Shown: one piece after another, positions 19,842 through 36,347 of the stretch
Numbering within the stretch: position 1 is the first letter of the stretch
How the letters are laid out: each line of letters starts with the position of its first letter
Source: Phycisphaerae bacterium
GTDB lineage: Bacteria > Planctomycetota > Phycisphaerae > Phycisphaerales > Phycisphaeraceae
Assembly: GCA_030432595.1 (NCBI GenBank)
Contig: JAUIGU010000005.1
Location: 1 to 64,000 of the forward strand
Direction: 5' to 3'
Length of the DNA stretch: 64,000 nucleotides
Notes under the pieces: model-generated
Told to the model about the DNA's origin: nothing
Databases searched by the model: none
Seen by the model: only the letters and a program-made list of their open reading frames with translations
Made by a program: the position numbers and the translations under genes

Positions 19842-20492
19842 TTATGGCGCGATTGGATCCGAATGCTCTGGATGAAGAAGTTGGCCGCAGCGAATATGTT
19901 TTTCGTTGTCCCACGCGTTTTCGTCGGTCAGTGTAAACCGAAATCCACACCTTGGGCACTTTACCCAGCTCGACTTATAGATTGATGCATTTAATCGTGG
20001 TCCGAACGGATTACTTCGATCCACTTTTATCTTTGAGTTACGTTCGAAGTCGCGATAGGCTGCTCGACGAATGAGCTGAAATGCTTCTACACCTTGCCTC
20101 CATCCTTTAGTTCTGGTCTGCCAACATACGCAGCCATCAGTGCAGATGGCCAGTACGGCTGAAGTCAGTTGTGCAACTAAGGCATTTGCACTGTTGTGTT
20201 CGTTCCAGCAGAAAGTAGCGGAACGATCACAGTCTTGCAGAGGATCAAACTCTTCCTCGATAGACGATGTATTAGTTGAGAATTTTCTGATTCTTAGTTG
20301 AAATTTGCACGTCACTTCTCCAACACGCATCGACACCTCTGAACCTTCGTTGATAATTTCAGTCGCCTCACCTGTGGGGAACTGAGACAGATCAAGAACT
20401 CCAATAGGCAGCTTGCGTTTTGAGACCGTCTCATCCCAATGACGTTGTTCTGGAGTGGATTCTGAATTGTAGTAGACAGTAAGAGTTACCAT
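19842..20492 (-). CDS. Hypothetical protein with C-terminal zinc-finger-like motif, AT-rich
   Basis: 216 aa from ATG 20492 (MVTLTVYYNSE); starts at 20513 or further upstream are possible and no clear Shine-Dalgarno favours one. The family is unrecognised. The C terminus has CPRCGFRFTL and later IRCGQLLHPEH, which could bind zinc. The middle has several Cys (TDGCVCW). Codon use is markedly more AT-rich than the surrounding genes (many AAT, TTT, GAA, AGA), which suggests recent acquisition. It stands alone on its strand, with a long hairpin on its upstream side. Confidence 0.5.
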   Translation of the reverse strand: MVTLTVYYNSESTPEQRHWDETVSKRKLPIGVLDLSQFPTGEATEIINEGSEVSMRVGEVTCKFQLRIRKFSTNTSSIEEEFDPLQDCDRSATFCWNEHNSANALVAQLTSAVLAICTDGCVCWQTRTKGWRQGVEAFQLIRRAAYRDFERNSKIKVDRSNPFGPRLNASIYKSSWVKCPRCGFRFTLTDENAWDNEKHIRCGQLLHPEHSDPIAP

Positions 20493-20543
20493 GATTCGAT
20501 ATACCACTCTCATTTTAGCTTGACTATTCAAGTCTACCTTGCC

Positions 20544-20629
20544 GGGTGCCACGCCTCAGCCGCAGCGTGATCTGTGCCGGTTGCAAACAAGCTAACCGTA
20601 CACATCGCCTGCGGCGGGGTGTGGCACCC
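20544..20629. repeat. Long imperfect inverted repeat (GGGTGCCAC ... GTGGCACCC)
   Basis: An approximately 86-base imperfect palindrome. The left arm reads GGGTGCCACGCCTCAGCCGC and continues to CCGGTT. The right arm is its imperfect complement, ending GCGGGGTGTGGCACCC. The loop is about CAAACAAG. It lies between the start of the AT-rich hypothetical gene and the trpF-like gene, so it would be in the 5' leader of either transcript. Confidence 0.65.
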
Positions 20630-21475: not shown

Positions 21476-22669
21476 TCAACCGCCGAGAGATACGACCTGT
21501 CCCGTCCCGTGTGACCGCAGCGCCGCGTCGAGGATGTCGTGGTGCCGCCGGGCTTCATCGGGCGTCGCGCAATGGAAAGGCGTCTCGCCGGTCTGCCGCA
21601 TGCCGTCTCGGCCGTTCGTCATCTCATCGCAGAACGCGGCCCACATCTGCTGGATGGCGTCGGCGAAGCCGAACTCGAAGATGCCGCCCGTGACCGAAGC
21701 GTAGCGCGGAGCGAACGGGACGTCCGCCACGTTCCAGGCCTGCGTTGCGCCCGGGCTGGCGTAGGGCATCGTCCGGAGGGTCTTCGGGTTCTCGGTGGAG
21801 AAGTGGGCGGACTGCCGCGTGCCCGCGATCTTTACGAACCAGGTGTTCTGATGCCCGGGCGCGATGCGTTTCACGCTGACGGTCATGGGGAAGTCCTGAT
21901 CGTCGGTGCGGACGTGGGTCAGCATCGTCGCGTTGTCCCACGTCTCGCAGGGGACGCGCACGCTGTCGCCGGCGGCCCGCGGGCGCGACGTCACGACGTT
22001 GTTGAGCACGCAGCGCACGTCCCGCGGAACCCATCCGAAGCGCAGGGGCAGGTGGAGCGGGTGCAAGCCCAGATCGCCGAGCACGCCGTATTCGCCGCAG
22101 TGCGCGACCTGCCGTTTCCAGTTGATCGGCTTGTCGGGGTTGAGGTCGCTGTTGTGCCAGAACCCCGCCTCGACGTCGAGGATCGTGCCGAACGCGCCGC
22201 GCTGCACCATCTCGACGATGCGCTGGGCCCCGGGGAAGAACGGGATCTCGCTGCTGCAGCGTACGAACGCTTTCGGGTGTGCTTCGATGGCTTCGGTGAT
22301 GCGTGCGTTGGCGGCGTGGTCGATGCCGAAGGGTTTCTCGCCGAGCATGGCTTTGCCGCTGCGGACGACGTCGGTGTAGATGCGTTCGTGCAGGTCGTGG
22401 GGCACGGCGACGTAAACCGCGTCGAGGTCGTCCGCCGACAGCAGCGCCGTGTAGTCGTCGGTGTCGTGCTCGATCGGGCAGTTGCGGTTGAACCAGTCGC
22501 GAACGGCGGGGCTCAGGTCGCAGATGCCGGCGATGACCGGCTCGAAGTCCGGCGGGTGCGGGCCCGCGTCGAGCTGACACCAGCGCGCCGCGGCCGCCGC
22601 GAACTCGCGCCCCATCAGGCCGCCGCCGATGACGCCGAACCGGATCGGCTTGCGTGCGGACGCGCTCAC
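21476..22669 (-). CDS. Gfo/Idh/MocA family oxidoreductase
   Basis: 397 aa. IRFGVIGGGLMGREFAAAAA at the N terminus is the Rossmann dinucleotide-binding motif. VYVAVPHDLHERI and GKAMLGEKPFGID (the EKP motif) are hallmark blocks of the Gfo/Idh/MocA family of NAD(P)-dependent sugar and inositol dehydrogenases. The C-terminal half is the substrate-binding beta-sheet domain. It is the last gene of a minus-strand run and overlaps the upstream aldolase by 4 bases (ATGA). It probably oxidises or epimerises an intermediate of the sugar handled by this locus. Confidence 0.88.
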   Translation of the reverse strand: MSASARKPIRFGVIGGGLMGREFAAAAARWCQLDAGPHPPDFEPVIAGICDLSPAVRDWFNRNCPIEHDTDDYTALLSADDLDAVYVAVPHDLHERIYTDVVRSGKAMLGEKPFGIDHAANARITEAIEAHPKAFVRCSSEIPFFPGAQRIVEMVQRGAFGTILDVEAGFWHNSDLNPDKPINWKRQVAHCGEYGVLGDLGLHPLHLPLRFGWVPRDVRCVLNNVVTSRPRAAGDSVRVPCETWDNATMLTHVRTDDQDFPMTVSVKRIAPGHQNTWFVKIAGTRQSAHFSTENPKTLRTMPYASPGATQAWNVADVPFAPRYASVTGGIFEFGFADAIQQMWAAFCDEMTNGRDGMRQTGETPFHCATPDEARRHHDILDAALRSHGTGQVVSLGG

Positions 22670-23505
22670 TTCGGACCCCCGAGGTGTTGTGCGGCCTGCT
22701 CGACGTCCGCGTCGTCGTGCAGCATGGCCATGAGTGCCTTCGTGATCCCGCGCGGGTTGTCGTGCTGGATCACGTTGCGCCCGTACACGATCCCGCGGGC
22801 GCCCTGGGCCAGCAGCGCGCGGGTTCGGGCCAGCAGTTCGCGGTCATCGACTTTGCCGCCTCCGCGCACCAGCACCGGGATGTTCGACGCGGTCTCGATC
22901 ACGCGGTGGTAATCTTCGGGGTTGTCGGTCGGGTCGGCCTTGATCACGTCGGCGCCCAGCTCGACCGCCTGCCGCACGAGCGGGACGATCTTCTCCGGGT
23001 CGCCGTCGACCATGTACCCGCCGGCCTTCTTGTTGGGCTGAAACACGAGCGGCTCGATCATCAGCGGTATCGCGTAACGCTCGCTCTGGGCCTTGAGTTG
23101 CAGGATGTTGTCGATGCAGTCGTCGGTGACCGTCGGCTCGCCGGGGATGCGGAAAAGGTTGACCACGATGCACGCGGCGTCGAGCCGGACGGCCTGCTCG
23201 GCCGCGTCGTCGATCACCTTGCTGAACAGGTGGTCCGGCAGGTCCTTGCCGTAGACGTTGGCGACGTCGGTCCGCAGCACGAGCGCCGGTCGGTCCTTGC
23301 CGGCGATCTCCTGCAGCAGCCGGGCCTGGCCGATGGTCAACTGGATCGCGTCGGGGCCCGCGTCGGCCAGCACCCTGATCGCGGAAGGCAGGTCTTCGAT
23401 CCCCGAGAGGAACGAACCCTCGTTGAAGAACCCGTGGTCCACGGCGACGTCGAAACATCGGCCGCTGCGGGCGTTAAACAGTCGGTTGAGACGGTATTGT
23501 TTCAT
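22666..23505 (-). CDS. Class I aldolase family protein (DhnA/LsrF-like)
   Basis: 279 aa. The blocks GRCFDVAVDHGFFNEG and YAIPLMIEPLVF match the DhnA/LsrF group of Schiff-base TIM-barrel aldolases, as do GADVIKADPTDNPEDYHRV (candidate Schiff-base Lys in VIKAD), IPVLVRGGGK and ARGIVYGRNVIQ. Members include archaeal-type fructose-bisphosphate aldolase and the LsrF thiolase-like enzyme. The substrate is probably a phosphorylated sugar produced in this operon. It lies 21 bases downstream of the DeoR regulator and overlaps the oxidoreductase gene, which supports a single transcript. Confidence 0.82.
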   Translation of the reverse strand: MKQYRLNRLFNARSGRCFDVAVDHGFFNEGSFLSGIEDLPSAIRVLADAGPDAIQLTIGQARLLQEIAGKDRPALVLRTDVANVYGKDLPDHLFSKVIDDAAEQAVRLDAACIVVNLFRIPGEPTVTDDCIDNILQLKAQSERYAIPLMIEPLVFQPNKKAGGYMVDGDPEKIVPLVRQAVELGADVIKADPTDNPEDYHRVIETASNIPVLVRGGGKVDDRELLARTRALLAQGARGIVYGRNVIQHDNPRGITKALMAMLHDDADVEQAAQHLGGPK

Positions 23506-23526
23506 TGAATGTTTCTGTGTTTCGGA

Positions 23527-24285
23527 TTATGAATCGGCCACGAGAACCTTGCACGCCACGGAACCAAATCCACGCGGCGGTCGGCGGTCCACGACCCAGT
23601 GATCGAACGCGTTCCAGTCGGCAAAACCGATTGCCGCCGGTTGCTTGCATTTGCTGGCGTCGCACACCAGGATGCTGTGTCGTGATCGTTCAAGCACGGA
23701 CGACTTGACCGCGGACTCGCTCAATTCGGTGGTGCTCGCGCCGTCGGCGCGGTCCAGGCCACTCGCGCCGATCACCGCGTAATCGAACCGCAGGCGTCCG
23801 AGCCAGGTGTCGGAGGCACCGCCGACCAACGCACAGCTGACTTCGCGGACTTCGCCGCCGATAGCGGTTACCGACGCGTCTGATCCGTGCCTGATGGCGG
23901 CCGCCAGGAGCGACACGTTGTTGGTGAAGATCCGCAGGTCTCGCCGCGTGAGCAGTTGCATCCCGACCGACATCGCCGTCGAGCCTGCGTCGATGAACAC
24001 GCAGGTGCCGCGGGGGACCAGTGCCGCGGCGGCGGAAGCGATCTTTCGTTTGGCCGGCAGATTCTGTCGGCTGCGGCGCCGCAGTGTGCTTTCTCCGCCG
24101 ACGTGCTGCGGGTGAACCACGCCCCCGTGCACCCGGACGACCTCGCCCCGCGATTCAAGCTCACGCAGGTCGCGTTGCAGCGTCGAGCGGGAGACGTCCA
24201 GTTCGTTCTGAAGCGCGTCGACCGTGAACCGATGCTGGTGGGCCAGCCGCTCGAGAATCGCGCGTTGCCGGTCGTGGGACAGCAT
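23527..24285 (-). CDS. DeoR family transcriptional regulator
   Basis: 252 aa from ATG 24285; an ATG two codons upstream at 24291 is equally possible. The N-terminal HTH reads RQRAILERLAHQHRFTVDALQ, then DVSRSTLQRDLRELE and VVRVHGGVV, the DeoR signature. The C-terminal sugar-phosphate sensor domain has FIDAGSTAMSVGMQL, FTNNVSLLAAAI and IGGEVRE. Such proteins repress sugar operons until a phosphorylated intermediate binds. The start codon abuts a perfect 10-bp palindrome, consistent with autoregulation. It is the first gene before an aldolase and an oxidoreductase, and lies 263 bases after the NagB-like gene. Confidence 0.88.
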   Translation of the reverse strand: MLSHDRQRAILERLAHQHRFTVDALQNELDVSRSTLQRDLRELESRGEVVRVHGGVVHPQHVGGESTLRRRSRQNLPAKRKIASAAAALVPRGTCVFIDAGSTAMSVGMQLLTRRDLRIFTNNVSLLAAAIRHGSDASVTAIGGEVREVSCALVGGASDTWLGRLRFDYAVIGASGLDRADGASTTELSESAVKSSVLERSRHSILVCDASKCKQPAAIGFADWNAFDHWVVDRRPPRGFGSVACKVLVADS

Positions 24286-24308
24286 GACCATTTTGTACCA
24301 AAATGGTC
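24286..24308. promoter_or_regulatory. Putative DeoR operator: perfect 10-bp palindrome at the regulator's start
   Basis: GACCATTTTG-TAC-CAAAATGGTC, a perfect inverted repeat with 10-bp arms and a 3-base spacer. It ends exactly at the ATG at 24285 and contains the alternative ATG at 24291. Binding here would block the promoter or ribosome access. That the DeoR protein binds it is inferred from position only. Confidence 0.7.
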
Positions 24309-24554
24309 ACAAAGGGTCAAGTAAGATAGTCTTTATGAAGGGATCGTGTATTTGGATCGCCTTAGTCCTCGGCTCGCGTGGTCACATGTGGGCAGAATGC
24401 ATCGAAGTGCCCGGTAGCGCTGCTTGAAAGCAGGTTTTCATACCGGCCGGAATGACTTCCTGAAAACGTGGATCGGCAAACGGGGTCCTCACAGGTTTTG
24501 TGCTGGTTCGAACGGTTTCAGCGATGTCGTGTACGCCTCGGCAATTGAATTGTG

Positions 24555-25493
24555 TTAGTGCATCTGAACATCGACGCTGCCCACGCCGTGTCGGAAGTAG
24601 CTGAAGACGACGTCGGGGTGGTCGGCGAGAAGACTCATGGGGACGGCGGTGTCAATGATGCCCTTGCTGATCATGAACGCGGAGAGCCGCATGCCGAAGG
24701 GGTTGTCGTGGTGGCCGGGGTGCCAGATGCTGACGCGTTGGGCCTTCCAGGTTTCGCGCGGCCCGACCGTGCAGGCGCGCGTCGGTACCTGGGGCACATA
24801 CCCGCCGCCACTGGTGCGGGCGTTCTGGATGATGGTCATGGGGTGCAGATCGGTCACGCGCGTCCCCAGCGCGCGATACCAGTCCGCGGGAGGCGGCTCA
24901 TCGCGGAACTCGCCTTGGCGCTGCGGCGGGTCGTTGAATGCCCAGTGTTTGACTTCGCCCTGCCCCCCCTGCATGACAACGCAACGGATGCTGTCGTAGC
25001 TGTCGGAGTACGCCTCGAGGTCGCCCGACGGGAAGTGCAGGTTGCCGTCGGGTATGGAAAGTTTCGGGTCGATGCGGTTGAAGCACAGTTCGCGGTCGGC
25101 CTTCTCGAAGCTCAAGGGGAAGTCGGCATCGACGGGGACGCCATCGTCATTCACCCACTCGTCCATGCCCCAGAAGTGTGCTTCGTGCTTGCCCAGGTCC
25201 AGCCCCAGCGCGTTGACCATGCGTGCGACCAGGGGGAGTTGCTCGGTCGGGCCGATCGGTCCGCAGATGCCCGCGGGGTTGTCGGGGGTCGATTGCCGCC
25301 AGGCGTCGATGTATTCCAGAGCTTGAGCGCAGTAGAATTCTTCGAGCGTGTTGAAGATGCGGACACGAAAGCCGGGCCGGTCGAGTTGGTGCAGGTCGTC
25401 GATGGTGAGCCGGGCGGCGTCGGCGAGCAGGCCTTCGTCGAGGGTGGTGTAGTCCCACCAATCGGCAGCCACTTTGCTGAGGGGTCTTGCCAT
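24555..25493 (-). CDS. Glucosamine-6-phosphate deaminase-like protein (NagB family)
   Basis: 312 aa. Blocks aligned with the NagB/sugar-phosphate isomerase family are [24 protein letters not shown] (catalytic Asp) and [15 protein letters not shown], which corresponds to the family G-x-G-x-DGH-x-AFNEP. The catalytic His and neighbouring Asn are kept, but the DG before the His is VK and the Glu after the Asn is Asp. It therefore may act on a non-canonical amino-sugar phosphate or be an isomerase. It lies 42 bases after the PIG-L deacetylase gene, which suggests the deacetylase supplies its amine substrate. Confidence 0.72.
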
Positions 25494-25535
25494 GGGTTGT
25501 TCCTTTGGTTGTGTGTATGCGCGTGGTCGCGCGGA

Positions 25536-26327
25536 TCAAGTGGCTTTGAGAAGCCGGGCCAACAGGTCGGATTGCGGGTAGGCGTGGCCGCGGTGCTGGA
25601 CGAAGGCTTCGGCGTAGGGCACGCCGACCTCGTCTCCGCGGCGTCGGGCGTGCCGCTTCATGGCGTCGAGGTACTCGTCCATGCCGTGGTGGGCACGCAA
25701 CCACTCGCGTTGCGAGGCGTGGGCGGCGAGGGCGTCGGCCTTACGGTCCATCACGCCGGCAACATCGACATGCACCGAGGGCGTTACGGGGAGGCCCGAG
25801 TACGGGTCCACGCCTTCGAGTGGGTCGACGTAGTAGAGCCACGGGACTTGTGATCCGTCTCGGACCGGCTGCGCCGATGCGTTGGGGATGGCGTAGCTGA
25901 ACGTCGCGGCGCGGGCGAGCAGGTGGGTCTGCTCGTGGTCCAGCATGTAGTCGAATCGCGGATGCGTGAAGACAAGCGTCGGAGCAATCTCGCGGAACAG
26001 ATCAATCACGGCTTGGATCGACGACGGATCGAACGCGACGTGGACGTCTTTGAGCCCCAGACAGTGGAATGTGCCGCCCAGCAATGCCGCCCCTCGCGTG
26101 CCTTCGTCGTGACGGATCTCCGCGATCTGGTCGGGCGGCAGCGTCGCCGAGCCGCAGTCACCGGATGCGGTGGTCGCCACATGCAAGTCCCAGCTCAGGT
26201 CGGCGAGGCGGATCAGTGTTCCACCGCAAAGGATCTCGGCGTCGTCCGGATGGGCCATGAGGCACACGGCCACGCGACGAGGCGGGATCGAGGCTCCGGC
26301 TCCCGAAGAGTCGGTACGCGTACTCAC
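25536..26327 (-). CDS. PIG-L family N-deacetylase
   Basis: 263 aa from GTG 26327, whose first bases overlap the stop of the upstream isomerase-like gene (GTGA). [20 protein letters not shown] carries the AHPDD zinc motif (His, Asp) near residue 26, and [15 protein letters not shown] supplies the third-ligand His region, as in LmbE/PIG-L zinc deacetylases. Family members remove acetyl groups from GlcNAc-containing molecules such as GlcNAc-PI, mycothiol or bacillithiol precursors, and chitobiose. Its place before a NagB-like gene suggests catabolism of an N-acetylated sugar here. No signal peptide was seen, so it is cytoplasmic. Confidence 0.85.
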
Positions 26328-28009
26328 GCGCCGTCTTTCCCCGTCCCGCACACGTGAACGACGATGCCCAACGCCGCGGCCATCGCGGCCTTGGCGGACA
26401 GGGCGCGGTCGGCGGCGTCGGCGTCGTCCGGCGGGTCGGCGTAGACGAGCTGGATGTGGTTGGACTGGTGCCGGGCCATCATCTGGTCGCGCGACACGCC
26501 GTAGGTCACCGCGTGCATGATCGGCCACTGGCTGGTCGTCGCGTCCCAGCGGCGCTGCGTTTCCGCCAGGGGTAGCTCGATCGCTTTGCAACGCCCGATG
26601 TCCATATGCAGCGCACCATCCTGGATGAAGATGCGGGACCACACACATTCGCCGGGCTTGCTGATGCCCTTGATCGTGCCACCGCCGAGGCGGAAGTACA
26701 TCGCGGGCTGGCGTTCGGACGTCGCGCCCTTCCACCCGTCGGCGAAGTGTGTCGGCGGGACGGAGCCGGAAATCTCGAACACCCAGACGTACTCGTCGGT
26801 CGTGCCGCTGCGGTCCGGGTCGCCCCAGCGCAGGTCGTGCAGCGTGTTGTCCGGCTGCATGCCCATCGCCGACCAGACGCGTTGCGTGATCAGCCCGTCG
26901 AGGCCGGCGCACTCGTCAACCTCGTTGAAGTGCGTGACCGGCTCGCCGTCGCGGATGACCGCCCCGGAAGTGCCGTCCGCGTTTTTCAGGGTCACCGGCG
27001 GACGGATGGAACAGTTCAGCGTGCCTTCCACGAGGTCGCTGGCTGGCGCGAGGTCCTTGAGGCCCTGCTGGTACTGGATGCCGATCGCGTCGCAGCCGAA
27101 CTCGTCGGCGATCCGCACGGCGGCAATGTACATCTTGCATTGCTGAAGAATCTGGGCGTCGGTCAGGTGCTCGGCTTCGTTTGAACCGGTCTCGAAGGTG
27201 ATCCCTGAGTCGTCGTACCAGTCGCGCGCGACTTGCGCCTCGTCGTCGCTCACCTGGGTCATCGCGAAGTACAACGCCGACTGCGACAGTCGTTCCTTGA
27301 ACACGCCCAGCGGGTTAAGCAGGTGGTCCGGGATGATGGCGTTGAACATGCCCATGCAGCCCTCGTCGAAGACGCCGAGGATCGCGGGGGTCTGCCGCAG
27401 CTCGGCCGCGAGCGATTCGCCGAGTTGCCGTTCGTCGGCAGGAAGTTCTTTGAAGTCGAGCTCGGTCACGTGCGACGTGTCGTGCGTGATCGTGCCGGTG
27501 TCGCACCACTGCTTGAGCTTCCCCCGGAAGTGTTCGTCGGAGAAGCTTTCGCCCCAGAGCAGCGCGTAGTCCCGGCCCGCCTTGGTCAGCGAGCCGCGCA
27601 GGTTCAGTGCGCCGACCAGCCCCGGCCAGGTGCCCGACCAGTTCGCCAGGATCAGGATCGGCCCCCGGTGCCGCAGCAGCCCCGGCAGCACGTGGTGTGA
27701 GTACTGCCACACCGCCTCGGCGACCACCAGCGGCGCATCGGGGTGGATGCCGTTGAACACCTCACGGCCACGCTTCTGGCTGTTGATGAAGCCGTGCGGG
27801 CCGAATTCGGACGGTTGTTCGTCGTGCGCGCGTTTGAGCGTCCATCCCAGCGACGCAAGCGCCTCGGCCGCGTCGGCCTCGAGCTGTTGCTGCGCCTCCC
27901 AGCACGTCGCGTTGGCGCTGTCACGCAGGTCGCCATTGGCAATAAGCAATGCCGTGTGGTCAGGGATCGGATCGGGTGAGCACGTTTTGGGGAGGCGGTA
28001 CTTGGTCAT
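26324..28009 (-). CDS. L-fucose/L-arabinose isomerase-like protein
   Basis: 561 aa from ATG 28009 ([10 protein letters not shown]). The length and order of blocks resemble the L-fucose isomerase superfamily: [47 protein letters not shown], and [14 protein letters not shown] followed by VEGTLN and [14 protein letters not shown], which offers Glu/Asp metal ligands. Such enzymes interconvert aldose and ketose forms with Mn2+. The next upstream gene is a class II aldolase, the usual partner of fucose and rhamnose isomerases, which supports a deoxysugar or pentose pathway. The substrate is not determinable. It overlaps the PIG-L gene by 4 bases. Confidence 0.7.
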
Positions 28010-28079
28010 GGGTCGCACTCTAACCGAGCATCGTGGCTCGATACCGACGAGGCAACGACCTGAGAGCCAGAAATAGGGT

Positions 28080-29240
28080 TTATGACCGTGCCGCCACTTG
28101 CCGTCGGTACGACTCAACTTCCCACTCTTCGATGAAGCGCCGATGACCTTCAAGCAAGGGTTGAATGCCGCCGAGTGCTTGGGCGCGTTGCATCATTTCG
28201 GCCGCGTCTGCGTAAAGCGCAGCGGTTGTCGCGGCCAATTTCGACGACTCACGGATCGCCAGACCACCCAGGCCCGGAAGCAGGACGACCCACGGGTCCC
28301 GCCCGTGACGATGCCGATACGCATCCACGGCGCCCCGCCACTGAGCCGCGCCTTCGTTGCGATCGATTGCGGGCTCATCGATCCAGAGGGGGTCGCTCTG
28401 GCAATATACGATCTGGTCCGGCGTCAACGGCCCGCCGAGCGCCGCGGCACGCCCGTCCGCCGTGCTCAGCAGCCACGCCATCGCCGGCGAATCGATCGGA
28501 CGCACAACCGTGTCGTCCCGGGACTCTTCAGCTAACGCCTGGTGCAACAAGAAACGTGCGGCGTCGCGCTCGCCGTCTTCGTGCTTAGGCGTCGTCACGC
28601 GGTGCCGCTTGTTGAATTCGGCATCACATCGTGCGAGCACTTCGGTGCTCGTTAACTCAATCTGGTCGATGTCATCACCGGACACGATCAAGCCGTGGTT
28701 CTCAAGCAGCACTGTCGTGACGCCGTGGGGATCGTCATCCACAAGCCTCTCCCGAAGCGCTTTGGCCAGCACGAGCCCCGGATCGACGTACGGCTGCCAG
28801 ATCGCCTCGGGCAAGACGGGTGAAGAAAGATGTCGCCCTTCGGTACAGCACGTCAGGCCATTGACCGCGGTGGGGTGGGTGTGGACGACGAACCGCCCGG
28901 GCATCAGGTGGTGCAGCAACGCCTCGACGCTTGGTCGTTGCCCCCGCTGCGGCTCGACACGGGCCGCCATCACCGCGTCTTTAAACGCTGCCTCACGAGC
29001 GTGCCGTTCGTGCGGCCAGTCTCGGTCCAGCATCACGGCCAGCGCCGCGCGTTCGAGCTCGACAAACCCGTCTCGCTCGATGGTGCCCAACGCGTGACCG
29101 CTGGCTTTCACCCACAACCGGTCGTCTGTCTTGAGCGACGTGTTCCCGCCGCCCGCTAGAACATAGCGCGGATCACGGCCGTAATGATGAGACAATTGAA
29201 CGACCGAGAGAAGCGGATCGTCGGCGTGTTCCATCTGCAT
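28080..29240 (-). CDS. Class II aldolase/adducin family protein
   Basis: 386 aa. The N-terminal two thirds form a class II aldolase domain: [14 protein letters not shown] (phosphate loop), [27 protein letters not shown] (zinc ligands HxH) and [15 protein letters not shown] (further His). The domain is longer than fuculose-1-phosphate aldolase (about 215 aa) and resembles the N-terminal half of the rhamnulose-1-phosphate aldolase/alcohol dehydrogenase proteins, here without the dehydrogenase half. It would split a ketose-1-phosphate to DHAP and an aldehyde. It is the first gene of the minus-strand sugar operon and is divergent from the GH38 gene. Confidence 0.82.
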
Positions 29241-29372
29241 CGTGCGCTAGTGGTCAAAGTCTTGTTTGCCGACGACGTTTGGGTTGGCCCAGCAGTGACT
29301 CCTCGTCGTCGATGTCAAATCGCAGGAGATGATAACGAGCGCGTCTTTTGCGTGAGATGCTAACGTTGCGGC
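29241..29372. promoter_or_regulatory. Divergent promoter region of the sugar locus
   Basis: 132 bases separate the class II aldolase start and the GH38 start, so promoters for both directions must lie here unless transcription comes from further away. No convincing -10/-35 pair and no copy of the DeoR-gene palindrome could be found. Confidence 0.4.
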
Positions 29373-32300
29373 ATGCTGCCGCCGACCTCGTTCCAACAAT
29401 TGCTCCTGCCGCGCCTGGCCAAGGCCCGGGACCGTTTGTCCGCCATGATCTGGGCGGTGGACCCGGCGCCCCTTGCGGTGTGGCAGACCCGGGCGACCGC
29501 CGCGCACGGCACGTTTGACGACGCGAAGGGTGAAGCGTTTGATCCCGTCAAGGACCGGCCGCATCACTGGGGGCGGATGTTTGATCAGTGCTGGTGGCGT
29601 GTGGAAATGCCGGCGGCTGACGAGTCCGCGACGCGTTACCTGCGTTGGCTGGACCAGGGCGAGGCAACGGTTTATGTCGACGGCGTGCCGTACTACGGCA
29701 TCGACCCCGGGCACCCGTTCGCGCCGCTGCCAACCGGTTGCGAAACCCTGCACATCGAATCGCTTTGCGCGCGGACCGGCGTGTGGGTGACCGGCGAGCC
29801 GCAGGGCCTGGACCCGTCGGTCGGAAGCCGATTCGACGGGGCGTTTCTGGCTAGCCGAAACGACGAGGCGTGGCACGCGTTTCACGACCTGGAGGTGTTG
29901 ATCCGCGTGGCGGGACTGATGAGCCGGCCGGAGTATCCGCCGGGGCACGACCTGTGGGGCCGCGGCGCGTACCGGCCGGAGATCACGCTCGCCGATCCGC
30001 TGTTCCGCAAGCTGATCGACCGGATGAACCGCGCGATCGACGCTTTGGACGCGGAAGGCGTAGCGGCGTGTCGTGGCGTTATGCGAACCATCTACGACGA
30101 CTTGCCCGCCGCGCCCGACGCGATGACCGCCGTGCTCACCGGGCACGCGCACGTCGATCTGGTCTGGCTCTGGCCCGAGAAGGCCGGCGAGTTCAAGGCG
30201 GTGCACTCGTTCGCCAACGCGCTGCACGTGATGTCGCAGTACCCCGAGGCGACGTTCGGCTACTCGCAGCCGGCGAGCTACGAAGCGGCGGAGAAGCGCA
30301 GCCCGGCGTTGCTCGCCAAAGTCCGCGACGCCATCGGCCGGGGTAACTGGGAGGCGACCGGAGCGATGTACGTCGAGTCGGACGTGCAACTCCCGTGCGG
30401 CGAGGCACTGGTGCGGGCGTTCGAACTGGGGCAGCAGGGGTTTCGAGGACTGACGGGCCGCGACAGCCGGTGCGTGTGGCTGCCGGACGTGTTCGGGTAC
30501 AGCGCGTGCCTGCCGACGATCATGGCGGGCTTCGGCGTGCCGTACTTCTACACGACCAAGCTGCATTGGTCGGGCGCGACGCGGTTCCCGTACAGCAGCT
30601 TCCGCTGGGTCGGCATGGACGGCAGCGTTGCGGTGTCGCACATCTCGTGGAACCACTACAACCAGGAGGTCACCCCGGAAGAACTGCACAAGTGCAACGT
30701 GCAGCACCGGCAGAGCGCAGTACACGGCGAGGGGTTATTCCCCTGCGGGTACGGCGACGGCGGCGGCGGGCTGACCGAGGCGATGTGCGAGCGGGCGCGG
30801 CGGCTGGAAAACCTCGCGTCGATGCCGCGAGCGCAGTGGGGCACGATCGAGTCGTTCTTCGACCGTTTGAACGAGCGGCGTGGCGCGTTGCCGTCGTGGC
30901 GCGGCGAGATGTATCTTGAGTTTCACCGCGGGGTGCAGACCACGCACGGCCGACTCAAGGCGGCGTTCCGCGCGGCCGAGCGAGGCCTGCAGATTTGGGA
31001 GGCGGTGCGGTGCGCGACCGGCGGCGGGCCGGTGGACGAAGCGATATGGAAACGCGTGTGTTTCGCGCAGTTCCACGACTACATTCCCGGCAGCTCGATC
31101 CAGGCGGTGTACGACGAAGCGGTTCCGGAATTGGAGCAGATCGCGGAGACGTGTCTGCGGAACGCGGAGCGTGAATTGTCTGCGGCGGCGGATCCGGGAG
31201 ATGCGGAGGATTGCGTGTTCAACCCGTTGCCGATGAAGCGCCGCACGTTGCTCGACGGGCGGTGCGTCGAGTTGCCGCCGCTGGCCGGGGTAGTGGTTGC
31301 GTCGTTGGAGACGGTGCCGACGAAGGCTGTGAATGCCGATGAGCGGACGTTGAGCAACGGCCGTGTCGCCGCGACGTTTTCGGAGGACGGCGAGATCGCG
31401 TCGCTGGTCGTGGACGGACACGTGGTTTCACTTGCCGAACCCGTCGGCCAGGCGTGGACGTTCCCCGACATGCCGGCGGCGTACGACGCGTGGGATATCG
31501 ATCGCTACACGCTGAGCAACGGCACGCATCACCGGGCCTGCGGTTCGAGCGAAGTCCGGGAAGGCGGCGGCGAGGCGTCGGTGACGTTTACGCGTCGTTT
31601 GGGCGAGGCCGGTTCGATGTCGATCACGTACCGGCTCGAAGCGGGAAGTGCGGCGATGATTCTGGATGTTGACCTTGAACTCAATGCACCGCAAACGCTG
31701 GTCAAGCTCGCCTTCCCCACGGCCTACCGCGGGCGTGAAGCGCGGTACGGCGGGCCGTTCGGCAGCGTGAAGCGGCCGCAGTGGGCGGGGCCGCTCTCGA
31801 ACGAAGCGATGTTCGAGAACCCCGCGAGCCGGTGGGCGTGCGTGGCCGACGACGACGAACGCGACGGTTTGATGCTGATCTCCGAAGCGAAGTACGGCTT
31901 CGGCGTCCGCGAAGGCGTGCTGCACGTCTCGCTCGCGCGTTCGGCGCAGGTGACGGCCCCCAACGTCAGCGGCGGGACCACCACGCTGGCGAACGCTCAA
32001 TCCGGCAAGACCTACGCGGATTTGGGCCGGCACCGCATTCGCTTGGCGCTGGGTCGCTTTCGCGCCGATGCGCCGGCCGAGGAACAACCCGCGGCGCTCG
32101 CCGACACGCTCTTCACGCCGCCGATCCGGTATCGCGGGCGACCGATCGATGCGGGTTTCTTCGGCGTCGAAGGCCCGCCGTCGTGGGTGCCCGCCTGGGC
32201 CAAGCCGCACCCCGACGGCTCGTGGACGCTGCGTCTGCACGAAACGCTCGGCGGGCGAGGGGCGTATCAAACGCGACTGGCTGACGGATTGAAAGCCGTG

Positions 32301-32393
32301 CCCACCGACCTGCGCGACGAGCCGTTGCCGGATGCGTCGGCGGTAAACGAAGTCACGCCTTACACATTGCACAGCCTGCACATCCGGCAATGA
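29373..32393 (+). CDS. Alpha-mannosidase, glycoside hydrolase family 38
   Basis: 1006 aa. The catalytic domain starts near residue 250 with TGHAHVDLVWLWP (zinc-binding HxD). TGAMYVESDVQLP, and WLPDVFGYSACLP (nucleophile Asp), follow, then FYTTKLHWSGATRFPYSSF. These are GH38 hallmarks. An N-terminal galactose-binding-like beta domain and a C-terminal beta-sandwich (from about residue 690) complete the usual bacterial layout. It removes alpha-linked mannose from oligosaccharides with retention. No signal peptide is visible, so it likely works on imported oligosaccharides. It is divergent from the operon of aldolase, isomerase and deacetylase genes, making mannose-containing glycans a likely input. 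Confidence 0.92.
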   Translation: MLPPTSFQQLLLPRLAKARDRLSAMIWAVDPAPLAVWQTRATAAHGTFDDAKGEAFDPVKDRPHHWGRMFDQCWWRVEMPAADESATRYLRWLDQGEATVYVDGVPYYGIDPGHPFAPLPTGCETLHIESLCARTGVWVTGEPQGLDPSVGSRFDGAFLASRNDEAWHAFHDLEVLIRVAGLMSRPEYPPGHDLWGRGAYRPEITLADPLFRKLIDRMNRAIDALDAEGVAACRGVMRTIYDDLPAAPDAMTAVLTGHAHVDLVWLWPEKAGEFKAVHSFANALHVMSQYPEATFGYSQPASYEAAEKRSPALLAKVRDAIGRGNWEATGAMYVESDVQLPCGEALVRAFELGQQGFRGLTGRDSRCVWLPDVFGYSACLPTIMAGFGVPYFYTTKLHWSGATRFPYSSFRWVGMDGSVAVSHISWNHYNQEVTPEELHKCNVQHRQSAVHGEGLFPCGYGDGGGGLTEAMCERARRLENLASMPRAQWGTIESFFDRLNERRGALPSWRGEMYLEFHRGVQTTHGRLKAAFRAAERGLQIWEAVRCATGGGPVDEAIWKRVCFAQFHDYIPGSSIQAVYDEAVPELEQIAETCLRNAERELSAAADPGDAEDCVFNPLPMKRRTLLDGRCVELPPLAGVVVASLETVPTKAVNADERTLSNGRVAATFSEDGEIASLVVDGHVVSLAEPVGQAWTFPDMPAAYDAWDIDRYTLSNGTHHRACGSSEVREGGGEASVTFTRRLGEAGSMSITYRLEAGSAAMILDVDLELNAPQTLVKLAFPTAYRGREARYGGPFGSVKRPQWAGPLSNEAMFENPASRWACVADDDERDGLMLISEAKYGFGVREGVLHVSLARSAQVTAPNVSGGTTTLANAQSGKTYADLGRHRIRLALGRFRADAPAEEQPAALADTLFTPPIRYRGRPIDAGFFGVEGPPSWVPAWAKPHPDGSWTLRLHETLGGRGAYQTRLADGLKAVPTDLRDEPLPDASAVNEVTPYTLHSLHIRQ

Positions 32394-34039: not shown

Positions 34040-35527
34040 TCAAGTTCGGATCGCCACGTCACGCGCGGCGGCGAGAAACTCTTCCGTCAAATCCTCTTGG
34101 GATCGGCGTCGGCTGGCGTGCCCGGGTTGGTCGCGTCCCGTCGGGTCGACCGTGGCGAAGGCCTTGAGCAACCGGTTCCGCAGAAATGTTTCGAAGGATG
34201 TATTCCCCGAAGCGTTGAACTGCTCGACGGCGTCGGCAAGCACCGGCAGCGCCGCGGTCAGCAGTCGGAGCAACGCCGACGTCTTGGCACGCGGTTCGTG
34301 TTTTGAGCCGGAGAGTTGCCGGCGGGCGACCGACAACACCGGGGGCAGGTGGTCGGCCAACAACGCGCGGCGCGTCCGTCCCGCCCGTCGGATCGCGCCT
34401 TCGATCTCCGAAAGCTCACGGGCCCGCAGTTGGTACGGCTTGGGCAGGGCGTCCCGCAGTCGCGCGGCCTTGGATTTGAGGAAGTTGAAGCGCAGAAACG
34501 CCCGGTGGGCCTGGTCGTTGTCGGGCGGCGTGATCGAGAAAAACCGGCGCAGCGTTGCGGGCAAGTCGTCGGTCGGTGCCGGCGGCTTGTGGGCGGTTTG
34601 TTCAGTCGGCGTGGAACGAAGAAACACCTCTTCCGCGTCCTGCCTTTCGAACAACGGCGAAGGCACGAACCGGATCGGCACCCGCCGGATCACCTCGGCC
34701 CGGTGTTCGAGCCCGGCGCGTTGCAGGGCGGGCGCACTCTTGCCGAAGCGCTTTGTCAACGCGGCTAGCGGAACGCCTTGACGACGCAGCCGCCGCAGGT
34801 CCCGGCGCTGGGCGGCGTCGAGTGGCCCGCGGCGCGCCGCGAACACGGCGTCGTCCGGGTGCTCCGTGTCGTGTTTATCGAGTTGCAGCCGGACTGTCTC
34901 GTGGGCCCGGCCGAGTTCGTCGGCGAGTTGTTTCGCGACGTCGTTGAGCGAGCGTTGCGGGTTGGCGTCGGCGAGCCGGCGGGCGCACTCGATCAACGCC
35001 TTGCGCGTTTTCGTGTCGGTTTGTGAGAAGTCGAGTGCCTTGGCGAAGCGCTGGGGGTGCTGGCTTTTGAAGTGTTCGAACGCATCGGCGGTGTGCCCGA
35101 TGACGCGCCGGCCGCCCGAGGCCGGGGTGATCCAGCGCCAGCGCAGGCCGGCCTCGCGCCAGCGGCGCAGGGTCTTGGGGTTCACGTTCAGCCGCATCGC
35201 CCAGTCGTCAACGCCGCGGGCGTCGTCCTGCGCGGCCGGCAGGGGCGTGGTTCGGCCGAGCGCGTCGATGATCCAGCGCAGGTCGTGGAGTACGGCGTCG
35301 CCGACGTAGAGGGCATCGTCGCCGTGGTCCCGGCGAAAACCGGTCAACCGAAACGCGAGGAAGTCGAACGGGTAGGTCTGCTCGGCGTCGAGCGTGTCGT
35401 GCAGCTGTTCGGCGTGGCGGATCACCTCGGCGCGGCGGGCTTCGGGCAGCGCGGCGAGGCGCGGCAGCAGTGCGGCCAGCGCGGAACAGCGCAGCGGCGG
35501 TTCAGGATGACGCGGTCGTCGGCTCAC
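34040..35527 (-). CDS. Sigma-70-like protein with N-terminal helix-turn-helix, lacking region 4
   Basis: 495 aa from GTG 35527, which overlaps the end of mqnA; no Shine-Dalgarno is visible, so the start is uncertain. Around residue 110, DWAMRLNVNPKTLRRWREA looks like a MerR/excisionase-type helix-turn-helix. A second HTH-like segment (GVPLAALTKRFGKSAPAL) follows. The C-terminal third resembles sigma-70 region 2: FLRFNFLKSKAARLRD, LLADHLPPVLSVARRQL (compare N-L-R-L-V-V-S-I-A-R) and AVEQFNASGNTSFETFLRN (compare A-V-E-K-F-D...G-x-x-F-S-T-Y-A). Region 2.4 is degenerate and there is no region 3/4 after it. It is likely a member of the planctomycete sigma-like group. Promoter activity is uncertain. 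Confidence 0.55.
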   Translation of the reverse strand: MSRRPRHPEPPLRCSALAALLPRLAALPEARRAEVIRHAEQLHDTLDAEQTYPFDFLAFRLTGFRRDHGDDALYVGDAVLHDLRWIIDALGRTTPLPAAQDDARGVDDWAMRLNVNPKTLRRWREAGLRWRWITPASGGRRVIGHTADAFEHFKSQHPQRFAKALDFSQTDTKTRKALIECARRLADANPQRSLNDVAKQLADELGRAHETVRLQLDKHDTEHPDDAVFAARRGPLDAAQRRDLRRLRRQGVPLAALTKRFGKSAPALQRAGLEHRAEVIRRVPIRFVPSPLFERQDAEEVFLRSTPTEQTAHKPPAPTDDLPATLRRFFSITPPDNDQAHRAFLRFNFLKSKAARLRDALPKPYQLRARELSEIEGAIRRAGRTRRALLADHLPPVLSVARRQLSGSKHEPRAKTSALLRLLTAALPVLADAVEQFNASGNTSFETFLRNRLLKAFATVDPTGRDQPGHASRRRSQEDLTEEFLAAARDVAIRT

Positions 35528-36347
35528 GGAAGGCGGGCATGGGGCCGGCGGCGGGCGCGGCGTGGGTGACCAGTCCGGCGAAACGCCGGATCGCCTCGCG
35601 CTCGGCCTCGCCGATACGGAAGCGCAGGATGTCGCCGAGGTAGGCGCGGGCCAGGCCGCGCGGCCAGGCGTGTGCGGCGGCATACGCAGCGACGATCTCG
35701 TCGAGGTTCCGAAGATTGCGTTCGAGCTTCTCGGTCAGCGTCTCGGGTAGTTCGTCCAGCTCGGTGCCGGGCCGTGTCATCCACACGGCGAACACGAACG
35801 GCAGCCCCGTGAGCTCGTGCCAAGCCTCGCCCAGGTCGAGTTCGTGCGGGAAGTCGTTGGCGTCGGGCGGCCGGGTCACGACTTTGTCACCGATCAGAAG
35901 GGCGGCCTGCGCACCATTAGGCAGCGGACGGGCGAAATCGTGATCGATCCAATCCGGCGTCCGGCCGAACTGTTCCCGCAGGATGATGCGCACCAGCTCA
36001 ACGGAGGTGTGGCTGTCGGTGTCGAGGAACACGCGTTCGACCTGGTCGATCGGGACGCGGCTAAACAAACGCACCGTGAACGTCGGCCCTGCGCAGCCGA
36101 TGCCGCCGACCGGCACGATCTCCAGTTCGTCGGCGTGGCGGATCGCGTCCATCACCGGGCACAGCGCCAGATCGAAGCGGCCGCCGAGCAACCCGTCGAG
36201 CAGCGCGCTGGGCACCGCGTATTCGACGCGCGTCAGTTCGTCTTCCACGCCGTGGATCAGCGGCTTGGCGTTGAGGTAGCTGACGCAGCCGATCGTGAAT
36301 CGGGCGTCGTTTTCGGCGGCGTCGGTGGTCGGCTCGGCGGCGGGCAT
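35502..36347 (-). CDS. mqnA: Chorismate dehydratase, menaquinone synthesis (MqnA)
   Basis: 281 aa from ATG 36347; an ATG at 36449 would add 34 low-complexity residues. FTIGCVSYLNAKPLIHGVE is the N-terminal signature of the MqnA/MqnD periplasmic-binding-protein-like fold. LALCPVMDAIRHADELEIV and VFLDTDSHTSVELVRII follow. It removes water from chorismate in the futalosine route to menaquinone. It is divergent from the NtrC-type regulator and overlaps the sigma-like gene by 26 bases. Confidence 0.87.
   Translation of the reverse strand: MPAAEPTTDAAENDARFTIGCVSYLNAKPLIHGVEDELTRVEYAVPSALLDGLLGGRFDLALCPVMDAIRHADELEIVPVGGIGCAGPTFTVRLFSRVPIDQVERVFLDTDSHTSVELVRIILREQFGRTPDWIDHDFARPLPNGAQAALLIGDKVVTRPPDANDFPHELDLGEAWHELTGLPFVFAVWMTRPGTELDELPETLTEKLERNLRNLDEIVAAYAAAHAWPRGLARAYLGDILRFRIGEAEREAIRRFAGLVTHAAPAAGPMPAFREPTTASS

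Follow-up and report, generated by a model that had tools for sequence, protein, structure and literature searches.

Gene Content and Organization of the Locus

The locus described here lies in a window of 64,000 nucleotides (the whole stretch of DNA that was analyzed: positions 1 to 64,000 of the forward strand of contig JAUIGU010000005.1, assembly GCA_030432595.1) from a Phycisphaerae bacterium of the phylum Planctomycetota, and consists of a run of seven minus-strand genes for sugar metabolism and a divergent alpha-mannosidase gene. In the direction of transcription, the run encodes a class II aldolase of the RhaD/FucA-like type (ALD2, 386 amino acids (aa), 28080-29240), an L-fucose-isomerase-like sugar isomerase (ISO, 561 aa, 26324-28009), a PIG-L (LmbE-like) deacetylase (263 aa, 25536-26327), a NagB-superfamily protein whose subfamily carries Lys-His in the loop (312 aa, 24555-25493), a DeoR-family regulator (254 aa, 23527-24291), a DhnA-like class I aldolase of the DeoC/LacD family (279 aa, 22666-23505), and a Gfo/Idh/MocA oxidoreductase (397 aa, 21476-22669). 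The alpha-mannosidase of family GH38 (1006 aa, 29373-32393) is encoded on the plus strand, 132 base pairs (bp) from ALD2. All eight genes, their strands, their order and the divergent GH38 gene were borne out by open reading frame (ORF) calls and profile scans as they had been given in a first-pass annotation of the sequence, which had read them as one new combined sugar pathway. Considering the predicted folds, the motifs and the linkage of these genes in relatives, we lean towards a different reading, in which the locus would unite two catabolic modules, an amino-sugar set and an isomerase-aldolase pair, beside the alpha-mannosidase, with kinases supplied from elsewhere.

The PIG-L, DeoR, DeoC/LacD, Aldolase_II, Gfo/Idh and GH38 proteins clear the Pfam cut-offs of their families, and ISO and the NagB-like protein were identified mainly by their predicted folds. 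ALD2 has PF00596 as its sole Pfam match (57.4 bits, cut-off 22.2); its best NCBIfam matches belong to the RhaD-ADH group and are below cut-off (NF006190, 134.1 against 1014 bits), and the 386-aa protein is without the C-terminal dehydrogenase domain of the bifunctional RhaD aldolase/dehydrogenase, of which it does not qualify as a member. Its HTH (residues 120-122) and NHG (residue 181) motifs are taken here to be metal-site residues. The deacetylase scores 80.3 bits with PF02585 (cut-off 28.2), carries an HPDD motif at residue 26 and qualifies as a PIG-L/LmbE protein. The regulator matches PF00455 (134.5 bits) and PF08220 (44.3 bits), and scores 122.9 against the 260 bits of the AgaR model. 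The DhnA-like aldolase matches PF01791 above the cut-off (106 bits); all six of its NCBIfam matches are below cut-off, including NF040816 (105.3 against 430 bits), and it fails the curated equivalog cut-offs of archaeal fructose-bisphosphate aldolase and others. The lysine within its GADVIKADP segment is presumably the functional lysine of a class I aldolase. The Gfo/Idh protein matches PF01408 (44.4 bits), with levoglucosan dehydrogenase as its best NCBIfam model (69.9 against 650 bits), and the GH38 protein matches PF01074, PF07748 and PF09261 (208.3, 88.2, and 54.7 bits) and contains a DVFG motif.

With the ATG taken as the start of ISO (the mechanical ORF call opens at 28153 with a TTG), ALD2 and ISO are 70 bp apart, ISO and the deacetylase gene overlap by 4 bp, and 42 bp lie between the deacetylase and NagB-like genes; further along the run, the DeoR and DhnA-like genes are 21 bp apart, and the DhnA-like and Gfo/Idh genes overlap by 4 bp. 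The sole long gap, 263 bp between the NagB-like and DeoR genes, has a guanine-plus-cytosine (GC) fraction of 0.506, compared with 0.66 in the window overall, and terminates in an inverted repeat over the DeoR start (24285-24309, assigned to no strand; 11-bp arms and a 3-base center), which is a candidate DeoR operator. Because of this low-GC gap and the repeat at its end, the seven genes probably form two transcription units, ALD2-ISO-PIG-L-NagB and DeoR-DhnA-Gfo. The repeat is unique in the window at up to three mismatches; zero matches in shuffled sequence are expected for any 25-base pattern, and hence are no evidence for the palindrome. DeoR control of the first four genes was considered and rejected, as neither a second copy of the repeat (up to three mismatches) nor a half-site (up to two mismatches) was found ahead of ALD2 in 29241-29372; readthrough is still possible. 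Two features of the run weigh against separate modules: a search of the minus strand in the NagB-DeoR gap revealed no terminator-like site, so a single long transcript is possible, and the 4-bp overlap of ISO and the deacetylase gene is typical of true operons, so both halves may be used together. Sigma-70-like promoters were not found where 0.9 were expected, which is uninformative. A foreign origin was also considered and dropped, since the GC fraction of the genes (0.638-0.685, window 0.66) gives no sign of it. The window contains further minus-strand ORFs at 19842-20552 (236 aa) and 34040-35683 (547 aa).

The NagB-Like Protein

No Pfam family matches the NagB-like protein at E 0.001, and its score with TIGR00502 (26.1 bits) is far under the curated cut-off of 236.9 bits. 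Its predicted model, built from 17 sequences, has a predicted local distance difference test score (pLDDT) of 87 and superposes on NagB (2bkv) with Z 25.2 and a root-mean-square deviation of 2.1 over 231 residues; the top nine rows of the structure comparison are all NagB, with NagB structures scoring Z 20-25 and 6-phosphogluconolactonases Z 16.5-19.5. Judged by this model, the protein has the NagB fold.

In NagB, Asp72 and His143 have catalytic roles, and Arg172 and Lys208 contact the phosphate (E. coli numbering). Profile alignment and pairwise alignment with NagB of E. coli K-12 place Asp72, Glu73, His143, Arg158 and Arg172 at D111, E112, H183, R212 and R226 of the NagB-like protein, in which Asp141, Gly142 and Glu148 are replaced by V181, K182 and D188; Lys208 falls on D263 in one pairwise alignment only, just past the end of the profile alignment. 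Residues D111, E112, K182, H183, D188, R212, R226 and D263 are invariant in 17/17 aligned sequences, the window's included, and the Asp141 position is V, I or T across the family. The VKH loop in place of DGH, to which the first-pass annotation had drawn attention, is thus real, and it is a property of the family rather than of the window. As far as the available text of the two sources goes, His143 is catalytic (PMC4008608), and Asp141, Glu148 and Arg158 are among the contacts of the allosteric activator in E. coli (PMC4281351), so the loss of Asp141 (and Glu148) may mean lost allostery and not lost catalysis.

The loop reads xKH in 80/80 loci from a contig scan, namely the best 80 of at least 573 relatives, a count biased by the use of KHWAFND as one of two peptides in the search. 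More remote NagB relatives in the class (L029 and L030; L denotes loci and G genomes) read EGH and TGH at this position, so the lysine seems to mark the subfamily. No description of this subfamily or of its gene set was found among the titles and abstract openings listed by a literature search of partial coverage with few terms. One relative (L026, G137:C1:6738400-6739334) consists of two overlapping match pieces, one of them with stops, and seems to be broken; PIG-L matches lie alongside.

Conservation of the Amino-Sugar Genes

Linkage was followed in a class sample of 150 genomes, a phylum sample of 392 genomes and a family sample, in addition to the contig loci, some of which duplicate sample genomes (L188 and L266 are one record), so that the counts overlap. 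The genes of relatives were called by a simple, error-prone ORF picker, and contig breaks could hide linkage in fragmentary genomes. When ORFs were matched at 111 loci, 2 had no matching ORF and 11 were removed as duplicates; the neighbor scans covered 96/109 and 97/118 listed neighbors, the rest having been dropped by hand. Rows of the co-occurrence tallies were picked by hand, at identities of at least 58-61% for NagB-like genes (fragments included) and at least 33% for ISO, with weaker rows excluded.

A close NagB-like gene (61-100% identity, some fragments) occurs in 28/150 class-sample genomes, the window's included, and PIG-L lies within about 1.5 kb of it in 20 of the 27 others, some flanks ending at contig ends. 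Among the best 80 contig loci, PIG-L is found within 6 kb of the NagB-like gene at 52 loci and an isomerase relative at a single one; the record titles name Planctomycetota, Verrucomicrobia, Lentisphaerae, Kiritimatiellota, Armatimonadetes, Chloroflexi and a few others. The Pfam families of 133 neighbors (same strand, 200-420 aa, from 54/80 contig loci) include PIG-L (35), Gfo/Idh (17), xylose-isomerase-like TIM barrel (10), PfkB (5), 3-keto-disaccharide hydrolase (5) and prokaryotic ketohexokinase (2), and 96 neighbors on either strand at 20 class-sample loci gave PIG-L (14), Gfo/Idh (5), TIM barrel (3) and PfkB (3). The xylose-isomerase-like, Gfo/Idh and 3-keto-disaccharide hydrolase neighbors at L172-L251 hint at a link to 3-keto sugars.

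Close relatives of the DhnA-like aldolase are scarcer, being present in 12/392 phylum-sample genomes at E ≤1e-60, the window's included; in the class sample, two other genomes, G026 and G072, have a relative above 34% identity. A Gfo/Idh gene lies within 1 kb in 13/13 relatives of at least 57% identity (10/10 from the phylum sample, G026, G072, and L207). Both the PIG-L/NagB-like and the DhnA/Gfo pair recur in more than one phylum, and they meet at two loci only: at L207 (Verrucomicrobium), NagB, DhnA and Gfo follow one another behind a weak PIG-L match (31%) that the contig start truncates, and at L188/L266, with the order PIG-L-NagB-N-acetylglucosamine (GlcNAc) 2-epimerase-Gfo-PfkB, they meet via Gfo and PfkB. 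In G026, a GH38 gene is divergent from DeoR-DhnA-Gfo-PfkB, and the four genes that part GH38 from DeoR in the window are missing; in G072, PfkB-Gfo-DhnA is accompanied by two permeases, a solute-binding protein and GH4.

Several of these comparisons weigh against an amino-sugar module that includes all five genes. No such Gfo/Idh gene was found in the short flanks of 27 remote DhnA relatives (at most 34% identity, L104-L130), and the NagB-like and DhnA-family genes are unlinked in 15/15 other class-sample genomes with both (mostly with remote DhnA relatives) as well as in 4/4 phylum-sample genomes (G247, G266, G298, and G355). Moreover, the GH38 proteins of G026 and the window share 28% identity over 353 residues, which makes an insertion of four genes between GH38 and DeoR a weak reading.

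The neighbors and the changed residues also bear on another explanation, in which the NagB-like protein would be an isomerase, a lactonase-like enzyme or another NagB-fold enzyme in an oxidative, 3-keto-sugar route of the Gfo/Idh protein, and PIG-L would remove an acyl group. The Gfo/Idh proteins, TIM barrels and 3-keto-disaccharide hydrolases counted among the 133 neighbors speak for it, as do the exchange of Asp141 for V, I or T, of Gly142 for lysine and probably of Lys208 for aspartate, and the lowest NagB rows of the structure comparison (Z 20.1) tie with the best 6-phosphogluconolactonase row (Z 19.5). However, the best NagB rows reach Z 24-25, well above that value, the equivalents of Asp72, His143 and Arg172 are kept in all 17 sequences, and the loss of Asp141 and Glu148, allosteric contacts in E. 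coli according to the portion of PMC4281351 available, may mean no more than the absence of allostery. We judge this explanation unlikely.

The Isomerase and Its Linkage in Relatives

ISO reaches 24.5 bits with PF02952 (Fucose_iso_C), under the gathering score of 29.3. Comparison with solved structures by sequence, singly and as a profile, gave no match, and the family profile compares with FucI at a probability of 1.5%, which is not significant, so the protein was placed by fold comparison alone. Its predicted model (19 sequences, pLDDT 86) matches L-fucose and D-arabinose isomerases with Z 34-36 over 336-340 residues (FucI, 1fui: Z 36.3 over 336 residues, model residues 190-561) and L-arabinose isomerases with Z 28-32; the first 184 residues fall outside the isomerase matches. 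On the evidence of this model, ISO belongs, as a distant member, to the FucI/AraA fold group. The metal ligands of FucI are Glu337, Asp361 and His528. His528 and Gln302 of FucI correspond to H518 and Q314 of ISO, and the placement of Glu337 and Asp361 varies by method, with the invariant E363 and D392 as candidates.

Relatives of ISO (at least 33% identity) were found in 37/150 class-sample genomes, the window's included. Clustering of the genes around 20 ISO loci revealed few shared families, save in two collinear relatives, L085 (G041) and L087 (G016), which come from one genus and are collinear across nearly all 19 kb. In a maximum-likelihood tree of 35 isomerases, the window ISO belongs to a clade of eight (support 99/100) and falls apart from the clade of G157, the other genome seen from its genus. 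An FGGY kinase adjoins the isomerase in four of the seven clade relatives (G072 and G143 by Pfam; G159 and G164 by tblastn, G159 also by NCBIfam), and a class II aldolase is present in the same run in three (G143, G068, and G163). Neither PIG-L nor NagB was found beside any of the seven, some of whose contigs end nearby. In G183 neither a kinase nor an aldolase was seen, which weighs against a general isomerase-aldolase module. The linked kinases differ and so point to no single substrate for ISO: those of G143 and G159 resemble rhamnulokinases (below cut-off), and that of G072 is a pentulose kinase (above cut-off). Outside the clade, a remote isomerase gene overlaps an FGGY kinase gene in G102, a 28% kinase match adjoins the isomerase in G525, and an ALD2 match occurs in G074. 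In G163, an integrase-core (rve_3) gene (L254:6588-7727) is located some 0.4 kb upstream of ALD2-ISO, a possible sign of mobility of the pair.

Linkage Between the Two Halves of the Locus

Over all three samples, NagB-like and isomerase genes are both present in 31 genomes, although some of the isomerases are remote (33-45%). They stand together in the window genome only and apart in 30/30 others, mostly on different contigs and, in G137, G189 (147 kb), G351, G504 and G542, far apart on one contig. The NagB-like gene and a class II aldolase gene are linked in 0/13 other class-sample genomes with both, and the isomerase and a class II aldolase in 3/14. These tallies (0/30 and 0/13) give no support to a single conserved operon, which was rejected. 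The first-pass annotation had named scattering of the genes in relatives as the observation that would speak against one combined pathway: such scattering is found between the isomerase and NagB-like halves, while within the amino-sugar half the PIG-L/NagB-like and DhnA/Gfo pairs are conserved, yet seldom meet. The combined pathway is thus supported in part: the gene combination itself is real; its two halves are apart in relatives.

Two observations weigh against this division. In 5/22 other class-sample genomes with both, genes for remote DhnA-like and RhaD-like aldolases, which share about 26-33% identity with the window's, are no more than 3 kb apart, which points to some shared use of both aldolase types elsewhere. 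At L176 (Thermoguttaceae), PIG-L, the NagB-like gene and an isomerase relative fit into about 6 kb, and the two genes between NagB and the isomerase, for an aminotransferase and a Gfo-type oxidoreductase, are on the opposite (minus) strand. Both suit the alternative of one new pathway, in which the isomerase, ALD2, PIG-L and the NagB-like enzyme would act serially on one substrate; an N-acetylated deoxyhexosamine, for example, would lose its acetyl group, undergo deamination to a deoxyketose and then be split by ALD2; the tight spacing and the overlap of ISO with the deacetylase gene suit it too. It is nevertheless doubtful in view of the linkage tallies, of the ISO clade, which pairs with a kinase or aldolase instead, and of the consideration that an aldose isomerase would be superfluous if the NagB-like enzyme already gave a ketose. 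The five genomes with linked remote aldolases (G005, G015, G036, G065, and G116) perhaps hold another two-aldolase pathway.

The full combination of genes was seen at the window locus alone, and Gfo, PIG-L and aldolase families are common around these loci in relatives, as would be expected if unrelated sugar genes had become neighbors by chance without any functional link. Against chance stand the short gaps and overlaps on one strand and the recurrence of the PIG-L/NagB-like and DhnA/Gfo pairs in more than one phylum, and we regard it as quite improbable.

Kinases

The run had been described as having no kinase. None was found among the ten locus-region proteins, the only part of the 64-kb window covered by the scan for kinases, and searches of the whole genome with FGGY and PfkB queries gave no match on the window's contig. 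The statement needs qualifying in that kinases adjoin the same genes in relatives, FGGY next to the isomerase and PfkB next to NagB or Gfo/DhnA, and in that the genome has candidates. A rhamnulokinase-like FGGY on contig C11 of the assembly is 42-44% identical to the ISO-linked kinases of G143 and G159, and a PfkB on contig C31 is 46-50% identical to the DhnA-linked PfkB of G072; either could, by these similarities, serve the locus in trans. The region on C11 (L145:7049-12149) encodes a RhaI-like isomerase (below cut-off), the FGGY kinase and a bifunctional RhaD aldolase/dehydrogenase (above cut-off); it looks like an L-rhamnose operon, which weighs against a role of this kinase at the locus.

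A Proposed Two-Module Model and Its Relation to Known Systems

In the two-module reading, the first module (PIG-L, the NagB-like protein, DeoR, the DhnA-type aldolase and Gfo/Idh) would break down N-acetylated hexosamines, perhaps as a single route. PIG-L would strip the acetyl group from the N-acetylhexosamine to give a hexosamine, the NagB-like enzyme would release ammonia from this amino sugar and leave a ketose, a PfkB kinase from outside the locus would phosphorylate the ketose, and the DhnA-type class I aldolase would cleave the ketose phosphate to triose units; the Gfo/Idh protein would oxidize the sugar or its glycoside at a step that is left unplaced. This order of steps is modeled on the Nag and Aga pathways of E. 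coli. In the second module, ISO would isomerize a deoxyhexose or pentose to the corresponding ketose; after phosphorylation by an FGGY kinase encoded at another locus, ALD2 would cleave this ketose to dihydroxyacetone phosphate and an aldehyde. The inverted repeat would be the control point for the DeoR-DhnA-Gfo transcript. The modules may have been combined recently and may be expressed together; their union would equip the cell to use a mixed glycan that the GH38 enzyme has opened.

A narrower proposal for the PIG-L/Lys-His NagB set, with its PfkB or ketohexokinase neighbors in relatives and DhnA here, is that deacetylation and deamination take place on the free sugar and the ketose is phosphorylated afterwards. 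In that case an unphosphorylated hexosamine would be the substrate of the NagB-like enzyme, which has the invariant lysine at the position of the loop glycine and probably lacks Lys208. Three observations hint weakly at such a route: the ten scanned proteins include neither a kinase nor a phosphotransferase system (PTS) protein, a GlcNAc 2-epimerase and ketose-type kinases are encoded close by in some relatives, and Lys208 is probably lost. We offer this route tentatively and consider it unlikely.

The aga pathway of E. coli contains a tagatose-6-phosphate kinase step. In the available text of PMC3668189, the pathways for GlcNAc and N-acetylgalactosamine in E. coli proceed through NagA and NagB, and through AgaA, AgaS, tagatose-6-phosphate and a tagatose-1,6-bisphosphate aldolase. 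The window shares with them the logic of deacetylase, deaminase/isomerase and aldolase, and with aga also a DeoR-type regulator. It differs from them in that its deacetylase is of the PIG-L type, its deaminase would be a remote NagB relative with a changed loop, its aldolase is DhnA-like with Gfo/Idh alongside, and no PTS protein is among the ten proteins scanned. In the archaeal chitin route, diacetylchitobiose deacetylase, a PIG-L/LmbE-like enzyme, acts before phosphorylation, and the deaminase comes from a different family; the PIG-L-type deacetylase is common to this route and the window, and the deaminase family is not.

The pairing of a deacetylase with NagB is already known as a fusion, the family NF002557 (PRK02122, 'glucosamine-6-phosphate deaminase-like protein'), in which PIG-L and NagB domains are joined and which is present in relatives at L272 and L273 (1013.7 and 1028.8 bits, cut-off 384). 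These fusions have the loop RTGH and pass TIGR00502 (256.4 and 262.8 against 236.9 bits), whereas in the window the NagB-like protein stands on its own, has VKH and scores 26.1 bits. The grouping of an isomerase with an FGGY kinase and a class II aldolase is likewise a textbook set. The isomerase fold of the E. coli L-fucose operon (fucI, fucK, and fucA) is shared with the window, and G143 has the full set of isomerase, FGGY kinase and class II aldolase; unlike that operon, the run in the window has no kinase, ALD2 is nearer to RhaD-ADH, and the isomerase is far from FucI by profile. A fucose/rhamnose microcompartment route of Planctomycetes and Verrucomicrobia, in which a methyl-pentose aldolase gives lactaldehyde, is described in the available part of PMC8857213. 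The phyla and the aldolase logic are the same; no shell protein was seen among the window genes scanned, in a scan that did not search for shell families.

Implications

The locus in the window is itself one unusual arrangement. The broader point is the recurrence, across several phyla, of PIG-L with a NagB relative of changed loop, often with Gfo/Idh and sometimes with PfkB, which seemingly makes the amino-sugar genes a widespread, uncharacterized set. Such NagB-like proteins should not be labeled 'glucosamine-6-phosphate deaminase' untested. If free amino sugars were indeed their substrates, the set would represent another way of using hexosamines.

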